IMG/VR virus record: IMGVR_UViG_3300042691_026110
Coordinates: 1 to 25,997 of that record
Reading direction: 5' to 3' (one strand)
Origin: a virus
DNA: 25,997 nucleotides
Made by a program: the position numbers and the translations under genes. Shown here one piece after another: positions 1 to 9,399 of this stretch. Numbering within the stretch: position 1 is the stretch's first letter; each line of letters starts with the position of its first letter. The notes under the pieces were generated by a model. That model had not been told where the DNA came from, searched no databases, and saw nothing but the letters and a program-made list of their open reading frames with translations.

Positions 1-445
1 TGCCATCTCCGTCACTGTCCGAGCAGTCAACCAGCTGAATCGAGAAGGTCTCATCGCCGCCGATGTTCTCCCGCCACAGATGCGACTTGCCATCAACCTG
101 ATAGGCTTGACCGGCCAGCTTCTCGATATTCTTTTCCAGCTCCCGGCACGGAGCGCACCACTCAGGAGCACTGAACACGATCAACCGGGGAAACTTGCCC
201 TTGGAAGCCTTCGCGGCTTCCTTTTGCTTCAGCTCACACAAGCACTTTTCCAGCTGGAACTTCAGCAGGCGATATTCACCGGCCAGTGATTCGGTCTTCT
301 GCTTCAACTCCTGGAGTTGATCGGATTCCACAGCGTCGACTTGGTTGGCCACGGTGGAACGCAGGTCGTCATTTCGCGGTGTATCCGCAGCCACAAGGAG
401 AGTGGCCACAACCAGCAGGGCTAGAGCAAAGAGAAACGCTTTCAC
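1..445 (-). CDS. Exported thioredoxin-like protein (3' end outside window)
   Basis: The visible 148 residues begin with a hydrophobic signal-peptide-like stretch (residues 2-20, small residues before an Asp-Thr-Pro). A charged coiled-coil-like region follows (about 40-78), then a thioredoxin-like start: a hydrophobic strand, then W-C-A-P-C with Cys97 and Cys100. The gene leaves the window after an Asp/Ser/Gly-rich segment. I chose the GTG at 445-443 because it forms a GTGA overlap with the stop of the upstream papain-like gene and sits 8 nt after AAGGAG; the GTG at 451 would be too close to that site. The family role is thiol-disulfide exchange, and the leader suggests work outside the cytoplasm. 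Coupling to a cysteine protease suggests a joint envelope role, which is an inference. It may be a host-derived moron gene. Confidence 0.75.
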   Translation of the reverse strand, partial: MKAFLFALALLVVATLLVAADTPRNDDLRSTVANQVDAVESDQLQELKQKTESLAGEYRLLKFQLEKCLCELKQKEAAKASKGKFPRLIVFSAPEWCAPCRELEKNIEKLAGQAYQVDGKSHLWRENIGGDETFSIQLVDCSDSDGDG

Positions 446-1254
446 TTCCACAGCTCCTTGGTGAAGTCGACGTTTCGCGGCTTCGCTTCGGCCAGTTCCG
501 AGAGAAGGAAAACGTAGGTGTGCGGGTGGGTCAGCCATTGATTGAACGGCTGTTCATAGAAATCGAACCGGCCCCGGTCGGCGAACTCGATTCCCCACGA
601 GTTCATTCCCCGCGGGTTGCCGTTCCGGAACTCCCCGGGGAAGTACCACGCATGGCCCCCAGCCTGATTGATCTGAAGTTGCCAGACTTGCCCATCCCTT
701 GGAACATTGAACCAAGGCCCGAACGCCATCGCCGCCCAGCGAGCCGCCAATCCTTGCCGGAGCTGCTGCCAGCTCTTGACCCGCACAACCTGCTTCAGTC
801 GCAGCGATGGATTCCCGGGAATCGCCGCGATGTCGCGCCAGTTCACAGGGTAAGACTGGCCCCGATATGGAACTTCCTGCTCGGTCTTGTAACCTTCGAC
901 GGTCGCCAAGTGAATGTGAGCGTTCGCCGTCGATCCACAGTCGCGACCGGCCAGCCCGTCGCGAGACTGAGCCCGGATGTATGCCCACAGCTCGGAGAAG
1001 TCGGGGAGCTTGCCGGTACTCCAGTAGTGGCACACCTGGCCTACACCAACATTCGAATGCCCGCCGCAGCTCCCGATTCGCTCCTGGTTCTTCACCGGGA
1101 GCCAGCCGAGCGCCACATTGTCCGGAACCTTCACGTCCTTGGCGAAGTCCTCATTGACAGAACAGAGGCTCGACAGCGTGGCAAGGCTGGCATGGTCTTC
1201 GCCGTCTCCGTCGTAGCAGAGCGGACGATTCCAGACGGGGTCTATCGCTTGCAT
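442..1254 (-). CDS. Papain-fold (C1-like) cysteine protease
   Basis: This 270-residue protein shows the papain layout. The oxyanion-hole Gln57 and candidate nucleophile Cys63 (K-N-Q-E-R-I-G-S-C-G-G-H) are six residues apart, as in papain. A C-G-S region at 106-108 lies before a helix and a V-P-Y motif. His201 is in G-G-H-A and Asn218 in N-S-W-G. The usual Trp after the catalytic Cys is replaced by Gly64. No signal peptide or pro-domain is visible. The ATG at 1254 follows AAGGGG and overlaps the end of the upstream membrane-protein gene by 13 bp. It lies between small membrane proteins and an exported thioredoxin, which suggests a lysis or envelope-degrading role; a virion-processing or host-directed protease is also possible. 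The fold call is firm, the role is inferred. Confidence 0.82.
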   Translation of the reverse strand: MQAIDPVWNRPLCYDGDGEDHASLATLSSLCSVNEDFAKDVKVPDNVALGWLPVKNQERIGSCGGHSNVGVGQVCHYWSTGKLPDFSELWAYIRAQSRDGLAGRDCGSTANAHIHLATVEGYKTEQEVPYRGQSYPVNWRDIAAIPGNPSLRLKQVVRVKSWQQLRQGLAARWAAMAFGPWFNVPRDGQVWQLQINQAGGHAWYFPGEFRNGNPRGMNSWGIEFADRGRFDFYEQPFNQWLTHPHTYVFLLSELAEAKPRNVDFTKELWK

Positions 1255-1670
1255 GATTGAAGCCCCTTCCGTGTATCGTCAATCGCCGCCTGAAGTTTCT
1301 TCTGATCGAACACGCCATCAGCCTGCAGGCTGGTGAGCCGGTCTGTCAGCGGCTTCCAGGTGTTCTCCTGAATGATCGGCGTCGAAACCTTGATGATGTG
1401 CAGCGCCTGCTCCCCGGTGAGGTCGCCATCGTTCGCGGCTGTCAGCTTGTCGAGCACTTCCGAGCAGACCAGGTCGATGTAGTTGTTGATCACCATCCGC
1501 TCGGTCGCTGGCTCTTGTGAGCCCGGCCAGAACAGCAGGCCGACCCCAGCCGTGATGGAGATCGACACTGCCACCAGAGCACCAATCAGCCCCCATTGAC
1601 GGGGAGTCGCAGGAGCGGCCTTGGGAGCCGCCTTCGCTGGCTTTCGTGTTCTGGTGGGAGTCTTCTTCAT
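1242..1670 (-). CDS. Single-pass membrane protein with basic N-terminus
   Basis: The protein has 142 residues. Residues 1-25 are rich in Lys, Ala and Pro, residues 27-48 form one strong membrane segment, and the remaining ~95 residues are hydrophilic and probably helical, with two Cys (one near the C-terminus). This is an N-in/C-out design. The start ATG overlaps the stop of the upstream holin-like gene as ATGA. Size and topology are compatible with an inner-membrane spanin or another lysis accessory protein, and its neighbours (two small membrane proteins upstream, a protease downstream) point the same way. No family was recognised and there is no lipobox, so the role stays open. Confidence 0.7.
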   Translation of the reverse strand: MKKTPTRTRKPAKAAPKAAPATPRQWGLIGALVAVSISITAGVGLLFWPGSQEPATERMVINNYIDLVCSEVLDKLTAANDGDLTGEQALHIIKVSTPIIQENTWKPLTDRLTSLQADGVFDQKKLQAAIDDTRKGLQSCKR

Positions 1671-1852
1671 TTCTGGTCTGAGTCTTTCGCGAACAGGGCA
1701 CTTCCGAGAGCACCGATTGCCAGGACAATGATTGTCATGCTGGGATTGGTGGCGGGGTCGTTGTCAATCGCCGCCGCCATCTGCTGCAGGAGCACCGCGA
1801 GAGCCGGCACCCCGCCGACCGTGGTTGTCTTCCAATTCTTGAACCAGCTCAT
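1667..1852 (-). CDS. Small two-segment membrane protein, holin-like
   Basis: This 61-residue protein has a short basic N-terminus (W-F-K-N-W-K), a moderately hydrophobic segment (about 11-28), a polar Asp/Asn/Pro turn (29-38), a second hydrophobic segment (39-55) and a charged tail ending K-D-S-D-Q-K. Size and topology resemble small phage holins, and the F-A-K-D tail is common in such proteins. The ATG at 1852 has GGAGA 8 nt upstream, inside the previous gene, so the two genes overlap by 89 nt in different frames. It is coupled (ATGA) to the next membrane-protein gene. Holin function is inferred from topology and context. Confidence 0.65.
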   Translation of the reverse strand: MSWFKNWKTTTVGGVPALAVLLQQMAAAIDNDPATNPSMTIIVLAIGALGSALFAKDSDQK

Positions 1853-2135
1853 CTGAGTCGTCTCCGAAAATTCGATTGTGAATCCGGGTCACCAATGACC
1901 CGTAGTGTTTTTGATCATTCGCCATCACGTGGAGAATGTCCGTCTGAACTGACACGCTCTTTGATGTCGTCCCAAGGAACTCCATCACTGCCGAGACCAG
2001 CTGGCGAATCAGTGGCCCGCAGAACTGCCCCAACCGGTGAGAGATCCAGCCCAGCAATCCGACGATTCCCACAACGACCACAATCGGGAACCCGACGTCC
2101 TGGATGAATTTCGAGAGCCAGTTCGCCCATTCCAT
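1764..2135 (-). CDS. Small membrane protein, possible holin/antiholin
   Basis: The gene encodes 123 residues starting M-E-W-A-N-W. Residues 15-33 form a Val/Ile/Gly-rich membrane segment, followed by an amphipathic helix and a hydrophilic, acidic part. The last ~19 residues are Gly/Arg/Ala-rich and come from the stretch that also encodes the start of the next gene. I start it at the ATG at 2135 because it shares one base (TGATG) with the upstream stop; the open frame continues 29 codons upstream but only as antisense-like sequence within the previous gene. One N-terminal segment plus a charged tail resembles BhlA-like holins. No close family was recognised. Confidence 0.6.
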   Translation of the reverse strand: MEWANWLSKFIQDVGFPIVVVVGIVGLLGWISHRLGQFCGPLIRQLVSAVMEFLGTTSKSVSVQTDILHVMANDQKHYGSLVTRIHNRIFGDDSDELVQELEDNHGRRGAGSRGAPAADGGGD

Positions 2136-8152: not shown

Positions 8153-8218
8153 AGCTTTGAATGTTTCGTAATGCAATTCGCTTGCAGTATCGCGATTGTG
8201 CTATGTGGATCAGGTGTC

Positions 8219-8378
8219 ATTTTCGAGGTCTTATACACGCACAGACAGTGGGGAGATCACACACACACACACACACGCACGTATAAGTTCATACTCATAT
8301 AAATATAAATATATATATAGATATTATACGCATGTAGATCATTACCCACTGTGTATTCGTGTATAAGACCTCGAAAAT
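8219..8378. repeat. 34-bp inverted repeat enclosing (CA)n and AT-rich tracts
   Basis: Arms at 8219-8252 and 8345-8378 are reverse complements with 21 perfect outer pairs (starting ATTTTCGAGGTC), then 3 mismatches in the inner 13. The 92-nt centre has a 19-nt CA tract (8258-8276), a TA/ATA-rich tract (about 8297-8327) and GATC on both sides. The layout is that of a large cruciform/hairpin, an origin-like structure or a tiny terminal-inverted-repeat element. No coding sequence is present inside. Confidence 0.85.
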
Positions 8379-8532
8379 AGAATTTTTCTCTATAGCAAAA
8401 GATCGGCACAGCAAGGTGTTTTGCACAATAAATGCCATTTGCTATTAACAAAACACAACAACAGGCACTTGCTTTTCTGAAATATAACAAATAGGCGTAG
8501 GCTGTTCTGGACAAACGGCTTATGCCGCTTGT

Positions 8533-8576
8533 GCTATGTATAATGTATTTTGTTGCCTGAAATACAACAACATAGC
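8533..8576. repeat. Two-step inverted repeat (hairpin)
   Basis: GCTATGT and TGTATTT on the left pair with AAATACA and ACATAGC on the right, around a 9-nt loop (tgttgcctg), with a 4/3-nt internal loop between the two 7-bp stems. It may be an RNA hairpin in the leader or an operator-like dyad. No T-run follows, so it is not a typical terminator. Confidence 0.6.
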
Positions 8577-8622
8577 AACAGCATGGGCTACTGTTCCTCA
8601 GGTGCTGTCAATCCACTTATCA

Positions 8623-8666
8623 CGCACTTTCGCTGCACTTTTCCTGCACTTTTCCTGCACTTTTCA
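8623..8666. repeat. Four 11-bp tandem repeats (iteron-like)
   Basis: Units TGCACTTTTCC at 8634-8644 and 8645-8655 are identical, 8656-8666 differs in its last base, and 8623-8633 (CGCACTTTCGC) is a degenerate copy. An 11-bp period is about one helical turn, as in iterons or tandem operators that place protein on one DNA face. They lie about 130 bp before the first plus-strand gene. Confidence 0.75.
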
Positions 8667-8796
8667 TTTTCGGCCTCGATTCACCGCTACCTTTCCGCAA
8701 CGCAATCGAACTCCTGGCTTCGCGTTTGACGCCTTCGATTGCTGGCGTGGCTCTCCGGTCACGTTTCCGATCTGAGTGGCAGGAAGGCGGTGTTTT

Positions 8797-9399
8797 GTGG
8801 CTGTGGTGAAGATTCAAGCGGATGGCGTTCCAACCGAGCTGGCCTACCGTGTGTGCAACGTGGTGAACGATACAACCGGGCATGTCATGTTCGATCCAGT
8901 GATTCAGACGTTCGAGGTTGATGGAGACGAGAATCAGGAGTTTGCTATTCGCAATTTCGAACTTCTGGTGAAGGAGATTCCGAAGATCGGATCGCTCGCG
9001 GATGAAGAGTCACGGAGGGTTGCTGATTTTCGCTGGGGCAAGTATTGCGCTGAGGCATTTATCGATTCTGTCAAGAAAACGTTCGGCCCCGGCGATTGGA
9101 TCGTTTACGGAAACCACTGCCTGACTGTCGACGCGAAGAAATCCGTGATCACTGCTGTGATGCAGATGGTTGATGCCTTTGATGCTGGGATGGAGTTTGG
9201 CAAGTCGGACAACAAAGAGCAGTCGTTCCTGCGAATCCTGAAGAGTGGAATCACCCGCCATCGCGACATCCTTCCCCGCATGGGTATGCGAGCCAGTGAG
9301 TTTGCCAAGCTCGTCAGGCGGATGATTCGCGATCAGAAGATTGAAACCAGCAAGGAAGGCCGGGGCGTCGTCTATGCCATCGCTGAGGTGGCATCGTGA
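8797..9399 (+). CDS. Unknown protein with C-terminal winged-helix-like segment
   Basis: About 200 residues. The N-terminal half has beta-like strands (V-F-D-P-V-I-Q-T-F-E-V-D-G-D) and no recognised domain. The C-terminal ~55 residues look like a winged helix: R-H-R-D-I-L-P-R-M, A-S-E-F-A-K-L-V-R-R-M-I, then K-E-G-R-G-V-V-Y-A-I. The same end pattern occurs in the next gene, so the two are likely paralogous there. The GTG at 8797 is chosen for its AGGAAGG 9 nt upstream; the GTG at 8776 is possible. It is the first gene of the plus cluster, after the iteron-like repeats, so a DNA-binding replication or regulatory role is plausible but unproven. Confidence 0.7.
   Translation: MAVVKIQADGVPTELAYRVCNVVNDTTGHVMFDPVIQTFEVDGDENQEFAIRNFELLVKEIPKIGSLADEESRRVADFRWGKYCAEAFIDSVKKTFGPGDWIVYGNHCLTVDAKKSVITAVMQMVDAFDAGMEFGKSDNKEQSFLRILKSGITRHRDILPRMGMRASEFAKLVRRMIRDQKIETSKEGRGVVYAIAEVAS

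Follow-up and report, generated by a model that had tools for sequence, protein, structure and literature searches.

A protease and exported-thioredoxin gene cassette that probably opens the host envelope in tailed phages of planctomycetes

The window analysed here, an IMG/VR virus record taken over its whole length of 25,997 bp, carries five overlapping minus-strand genes at positions 1-2135, on the 3' side of the head genes (Table 1). Successive genes share 89, 4, 13 and 4 bp in the order of transcription. The gene calls bear out an earlier note on this DNA, which had described five overlapping minus-strand genes with two or three small membrane proteins among them. The complete form of the last gene, which encodes a thioredoxin-like protein (redoxin), was supplied by two other contigs of the same phage (L002 and L003/L009), whose papain is 100% identical. 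One of these, L009, runs about 10.9 kb beyond the protease into the tail genes; past the redoxin it encodes, in order, an 86-aa membrane protein, a 146-aa protein, the tail tube, the tape measure and the fibres, followed by more structural-type genes and then an AAA ATPase.

Table 1. The five-gene locus and two further features of the window
Feature	Position	Strand	Remarks
Membrane protein, 123 aa	1764-2135	minus	Amphipathic/TM segment at N-terminus followed by helical tail; holin-like candidate
Membrane protein, 61 aa	1667-1852	minus	WKTT..G...LFAKD pattern; holin-like candidate
Helical protein with N-terminal membrane anchor, 142 aa	1242-1670	minus	Directly 5' of papain
Predicted C1A papain-type cysteine protease, 270 aa, without signal peptide	442-1254	minus	Gln57, Cys63, His201, Asn218
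Predicted-exported thioredoxin-like protein, W-C-A-P-C	1-445	minus	3' end cut by contig end; complete in L003:2045-2674
Single ORF, 690 aa	3764-5836		Phage_capsid_4 domain and long N-terminal region; may be prohead protease
Short array of 3.8 tandem GCACTTTTCCT copies	8624-8665		Intergenic, ahead of plus-strand genes

By its predicted fold, the product of the fourth gene is a C1A papain-type protease, with putative proteolytic activity. The four catalytic residues are invariant across 19 aligned relatives and stand in the order and spacing of papain; the earlier note had read a papain layout from them, and its positions were exact. Against the Pfam C1 profile (PF00112) the protein scores 16.1 bits, for a cut-off of 20.7, and three members of its clade (L064, L067 and L102) reach 40.1, 40.2 and 50.6 bits. 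An AlphaFold2 model (15 sequences, pLDDT 83) finds its best solved match in xylellain (3ois; Foldseek E 5e-12, TM 0.65, about 16% identity), with chymopapain, cathepsins and papain itself among the further matches; from xylellain through chymopapain to the cathepsins, E runs from 5e-12 to 1e-8. Such a model had been suggested in the earlier note, where a non-papain fold was named as the outcome that would speak against its reading; what emerged was the C1A papain fold. Xylellain and other bacterial C1A peptidases share the same catalytic layout and include the best structural match, but they are not phage lysis proteins. Light-chain antibody matches returned by phmmer were discarded as spurious. 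In a table of hydrophobicity and lipoboxes, the N-termini of the papains are not hydrophobic, a single one (L105) being borderline; those of the redoxin and of the protein upstream of the papain are.

One might instead take this enzyme for an endolysin built on a papain scaffold, a peptidoglycan-peptide endopeptidase acting on stem peptides or cross-links; the thioredoxin would then hold its active site in the reduced state. Papain-superfamily enzymes of the CHAP and NlpC/P60 types do cut peptidoglycan (PMC10318531), and other phage papain domains occur in a protein named endolysin from Alicyclobacillus phage MMB025 and in a peptidoglycan binding-like protein (BFVD A0A6J5MXS7). However, Pfam gave no CHAP or NlpC match and the top structural matches are C1A enzymes; on the fold comparison a CHAP or NlpC assignment was dropped in favour of a protein peptidase. 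Pfam likewise detects no peptidoglycan-binding domain within the 270 residues. We regard this alternative as unlikely.

Once its 3' end had been completed, the redoxin passed the Pfam cut-offs for both Thioredoxin_2 (29.9 bits; cut-off 27) and Thioredoxin (26.0 bits; cut-off 23.5), upholding the earlier description of a signal-peptide thioredoxin-like protein with a W-C-A-P-C motif. Its N-terminus is strongly hydrophobic (KD15 3.05) and its counterparts carry a signal peptide or a lipobox, the latter in several; on these sequence features the redoxin is predicted to be exported. The redoxins of L064, L066, L068, L076 and L103 miss Pfam Thioredoxin and were therefore assigned by their CxxC, export signal and position. 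A search of viral contigs with profile HMM A3 found no redoxin, because these proteins are too divergent for that profile. Two genomes combine domains within a single reading frame. In G582 (L105:2302-3765) an exported thioredoxin is fused to a trypsin-like domain directly after the papain (Trypsin_2 1e-10, Thioredoxin 2.5e-8, both above cut-off), a fusion that ties disulfide reduction to proteolysis. In G605 (L102:1366-2931) papain, a TM segment and a CxxC redoxin domain lie in one ORF; seen in one genome, this could be a natural fusion or an assembly indel artefact. Were the ORF not an artefact, its TM segment would hold the papain on the cytoplasmic side, which counts against a role in lysis. 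The redoxin could equally well serve to hold the active-site cysteine of the papain reduced.

No holin was clearly recognised among the small TM proteins, the one PHROG holin match, that of the 123-aa protein, being weak (E 0.041). This protein has a counterpart in L004 and one of like topology in provirus G198. The 61-aa protein matches a PHROG without known function (phrog_29636, 1.7e-4) and nothing among named phages; a small protein resembling it stands in the corresponding cassette of provirus G540 (L106). The anchored helical protein directly upstream of the papain is conserved (alignment A7), its counterparts bearing a signal anchor or a lipobox, and a protein of about 100 aa with a C-terminal membrane helix commonly lies close to the cassette. 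When a spanin pair was considered, anchored helical and TM-coiled-coil proteins were found to be present; the model of the 142-aa protein is helical and of low confidence (pLDDT 59).

Close-homology scans with single window proteins reached no further than the window phage itself and one relative at 87%, in which the gene order is kept, and an exact active-site pattern scan of genome contigs gave only chance DNA matches and no papain; one of these chance matches, in a planctomycete MAG, served as the entry point to that phylum. The wider relatives came from alignment and profile searches of viral contigs and Planctomycetota genomes. In a tree of 34 C1 peptidases, 22 form one clade (support 99/99), its members coming from a variety of phages, from proviruses of planctomycetes and from a small number of host chromosomes; the other 12 are outgroup. 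An exported redoxin follows the papain in 19 of the 22 and in none of the 12, a distribution that rules out chance neighbours; the fewest-changes count for the partner is four (bootstrap range 4-4) and fits one gain and three losses. In L064 the redoxin lies two genes further downstream, and the three exceptions (L070, L075 and L104) keep an exported partner without CxxC. The earlier concern that the gene order might not be conserved in related phages is answered by the recurrence of the series membrane protein, anchored protein, papain, redoxin. Exported partners in L064 (6806-7522), L070 (10807-11463) and L104 contain a W-T-[YH]-P-G-x-I-x-x-H-L ... H-x-x-x-H domain; such proteins come with or without CxxC, and those of L064 and L070 have no Pfam match. 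A like papain adjoins an exported upstream protein and membrane-type genes in an uncultured huge phage of 595 kb (L140, LR756511.1). Another phage group (L071, L074, L077, L078) has C1 peptidases (GSCVGHS) that no redoxin accompanies; the peptidase is followed by small holin-like membrane proteins in L077 and L078, hinting that papain-type lysins are possibly more widely spread.

The cassette shifts between genome positions as one unit. In the window phage it has head-tail connector genes on one side and tail-tube genes on the other; it lies upstream of the terminase and head genes in G198, immediately upstream of the terminase in L069 and beside baseplate-type genes in L075. Since its place varies among phages, it behaves as a functional unit and not as a structural gene. 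Its setting in the window phage could be taken to mean that the protease matures virion proteins, or that protease and thioredoxin are virion parts used in entry. We consider this highly improbable: the position is tied to no single structural gene, the signal peptide or lipobox of the redoxin is mismatched with virion assembly in the cytoplasm, and separate head protease-type genes exist in the form of the 690-aa window ORF as a candidate, a Clp-type gene in G198 and an S49 gene in G401.

Provirus relatives in Planctomycetia support the planctomycete host supposed in the earlier note and speak against a host outside the planctomycetes. The window-phage terminase matches G709 at E 1.4e-135 and G605 at 1.5e-108, against 5e-21 for the best named phage, in databases that differ in size; the portal of G605 resembles that of the window phage as well (1.1e-49). 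Four cassettes are present in G709, two of them adjoining terminase, portal and capsid genes close to those of viral contig G398 (E <=1e-239). The provirus of G198, about 44.8 kb long, is bounded by an exact 46-bp direct repeat whose right copy falls within a tRNA-Arg gene, and is ordered integrase, replication genes, cassette, then terminase, portal, capsid and tape measure. Between its cassette and terminase, directly after the former, lies the gene for a 1065-aa protein with a signal-peptide-like start (L032:1697-4894).

Three Planctopirus-type genomes (G325, which we take to be P. limnophila, G287 and G689) hold a stand-alone cassette among host genes; in G325 the locus occupies joined positions 17100-23752 of L029 and L030, on a contig of 5,423,075 bp. 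In the two examined, G325 and G287, a gene for an ABC-type ATPase comes after the cassette, and so, about 2.5 kb downstream, does a terminase-like gene (E 6e-13), the one neighbour of that kind. The stand-alone form may be a remnant or else a lysis unit that has been domesticated, perhaps that of a gene-transfer-like element. Its retention in three chromosomes lends some weight to a non-lytic action on the envelope, be it remodelling, superinfection exclusion or the shaving of receptors while infection or lysogeny is under way, or else a slow release of virions, and so does a planctomycete phage of 21.9 kb that is reported to be released without lysis (PMC10945688). The papain, however, has no export signal, and the cassette travels with late, structural and holin-like genes, so that a non-lytic role seems distinctly unlikely to us.

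The earlier note had recognised no endolysin in the window and had named one beyond its ends as a point that would count against its reading; none was recognised in the 10.9-kb extension either. The window phage together with its extension (about 37 kb) matches 25 Pfam families, among them no peptidoglycan hydrolase, and its tail region yields none in PHROGs. The unassigned ORFs of G401, a phage contig of 41.5 kb, and of the complete provirus G198 match 15 Pfam and 21 PHROG families, with no peptidoglycan hydrolase or named lysis family; the assigned genes of both are for replication, packaging and structure. Contig G398 is nearly closed, its ends being bridged by L068 within 0.4 kb, and has no peptidoglycan hydrolase among the matches listed (25 of 30 Pfam families). 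These scans, against Pfam and PHROGs, covered mostly ORFs of at least 65-80 aa, and enzymes of unknown families would escape them. Just ahead of the cassette on L075, a viral contig of 172 kb, lies a gene (8206-9108) whose product was assigned by eye as peptidoglycan-binding-like and zinc-protease-like (HExxH). A canonical lysis cassette is defined by its muralytic enzyme, and our search for one found none; we therefore do not class the unit as such a cassette, though its working may still resemble one.

Since the 1980s there has been debate over which of two materials, peptidoglycan or Cys-rich protein, holds the planctomycete wall (PMC8567305, PMC10632474). The Cys-rich YTV proteins are found in envelope preparations and are confined to this part of the phylum, and most Planctomycetales are without peptidoglycan genes (PMC8567305); in P. 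limnophila most genes for peptidoglycan synthesis are non-essential, and YTV proteins have been suggested to affect wall rigidity (PMC10632474). YTV proteins are encoded in all 12 cassette hosts examined, which agrees with the Cys-rich envelope proteins invoked in the earlier note and described in the literature (PMC8567305, PMC10632474). Of 392 genomes drawn from across the phylum, 37 are strongly positive for YTV proteins, and all four of the cassette genomes in the draw are among these; the co-occurrence has P = 7e-5, or 7e-4 with a close pair counted once, uncorrected for kinship. Kinship confounds it, because the cassette and the YTV proteins are alike features of the class Planctomycetia, and the co-occurrence is only consistent with the lysis reading.

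MraY and MurC homologues are present in 9 of the 12 hosts and absent from G605, G709 (one 6.5-Mb contig) and G542, among which is one holding a relative of the window phage. In the nine, peptidoglycan may therefore still need cutting, and the cassette is also used by phages whose hosts can probably make it; their MraY is a further point for the peptidoglycan endopeptidase considered above. Against it, the other three carry the cassette with neither gene, and a peptidoglycan target alone therefore fails to explain the cassette. Nor does a protein-only wall in every host explain it. The earlier reading thus stands as regards the papain fold, the gene order, the host, the lack of a recognised endolysin and the Cys-rich proteins; its purely protein wall was too simple for a set of hosts most of which keep MraY and MurC.

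We propose, with a probability of roughly 0.6, that the five-gene unit serves tailed phages of planctomycetes to open the host envelope, as a lysis cassette that combines a protease with an exported reductant. Late in infection the papain-type protease would accumulate in the cytoplasm, like a classical endolysin, because it is without an export signal, and the small holin-like membrane proteins would let it cross the inner membrane. By then the thioredoxin, exported or lipid-anchored, would already sit in the periplasm, where it may reduce the disulfides of a Cys-rich (YTV-type) layer, keep the catalytic cysteine of the protease reduced, or both. The protease would digest the protein layer and the cell would burst. 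Holin action, periplasmic release of the papain, its substrate and lysis are all things that we infer. A wider proposal, which we would put somewhat short of an even chance, is that many Planctomycetia phages dropped muralytic endolysins and lyse by means of a protease and an exported disulfide reductant; theirs would then be the first lysis system of phages to target an envelope of disulfide-linked protein.

By analogy, the closest known systems appear to be the holin-endolysin-spanin cassette in organisation and PeiW/PeiP in principle. The former likewise consists of overlapping late genes that move as a unit and encode small membrane proteins, exported or anchored accessories and, in the cytoplasm, a hydrolase that has no export signal. 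Here, in contrast, no peptidoglycan hydrolase is recognised and the hydrolase is a protease of C1A papain type; its exported thioredoxin partner is near-constant, and the holin and spanin genes are candidates. PeiW and PeiP, pseudomurein endoisopeptidases of family C71 from methanogen phages, are also cysteine enzymes of the papain-like superfamily, and they lyse hosts that have no ordinary peptidoglycan wall (PMC10318531). They differ in peptidase family and in substrate. To our knowledge, they have no exported thioredoxin partner. SAR endolysins of the P1 Lyz type offer a further parallel, as phage lysis enzymes whose control lies in periplasmic thiol-disulfide exchange. Lyz, however, is a lysozyme that carries a signal anchor of its own, whereas here a separate exported redoxin stands beside the protease. 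We found no account of such a protease-thioredoxin cassette in the open-access literature.

Phages must cut what holds the cell together, and their lysis enzymes therefore report on the wall. A conserved cassette that also occurs in proviruses whose hosts lack MraY and MurC makes the debate on the planctomycete wall testable at the bench, and it would provide enzymes for opening lysozyme-resistant cells. If lysis by protease and exported reductant is indeed aimed as we propose, the disulfide-linked protein envelope would be the wall that bears the load, at any rate in hosts that lack MraY and MurC.
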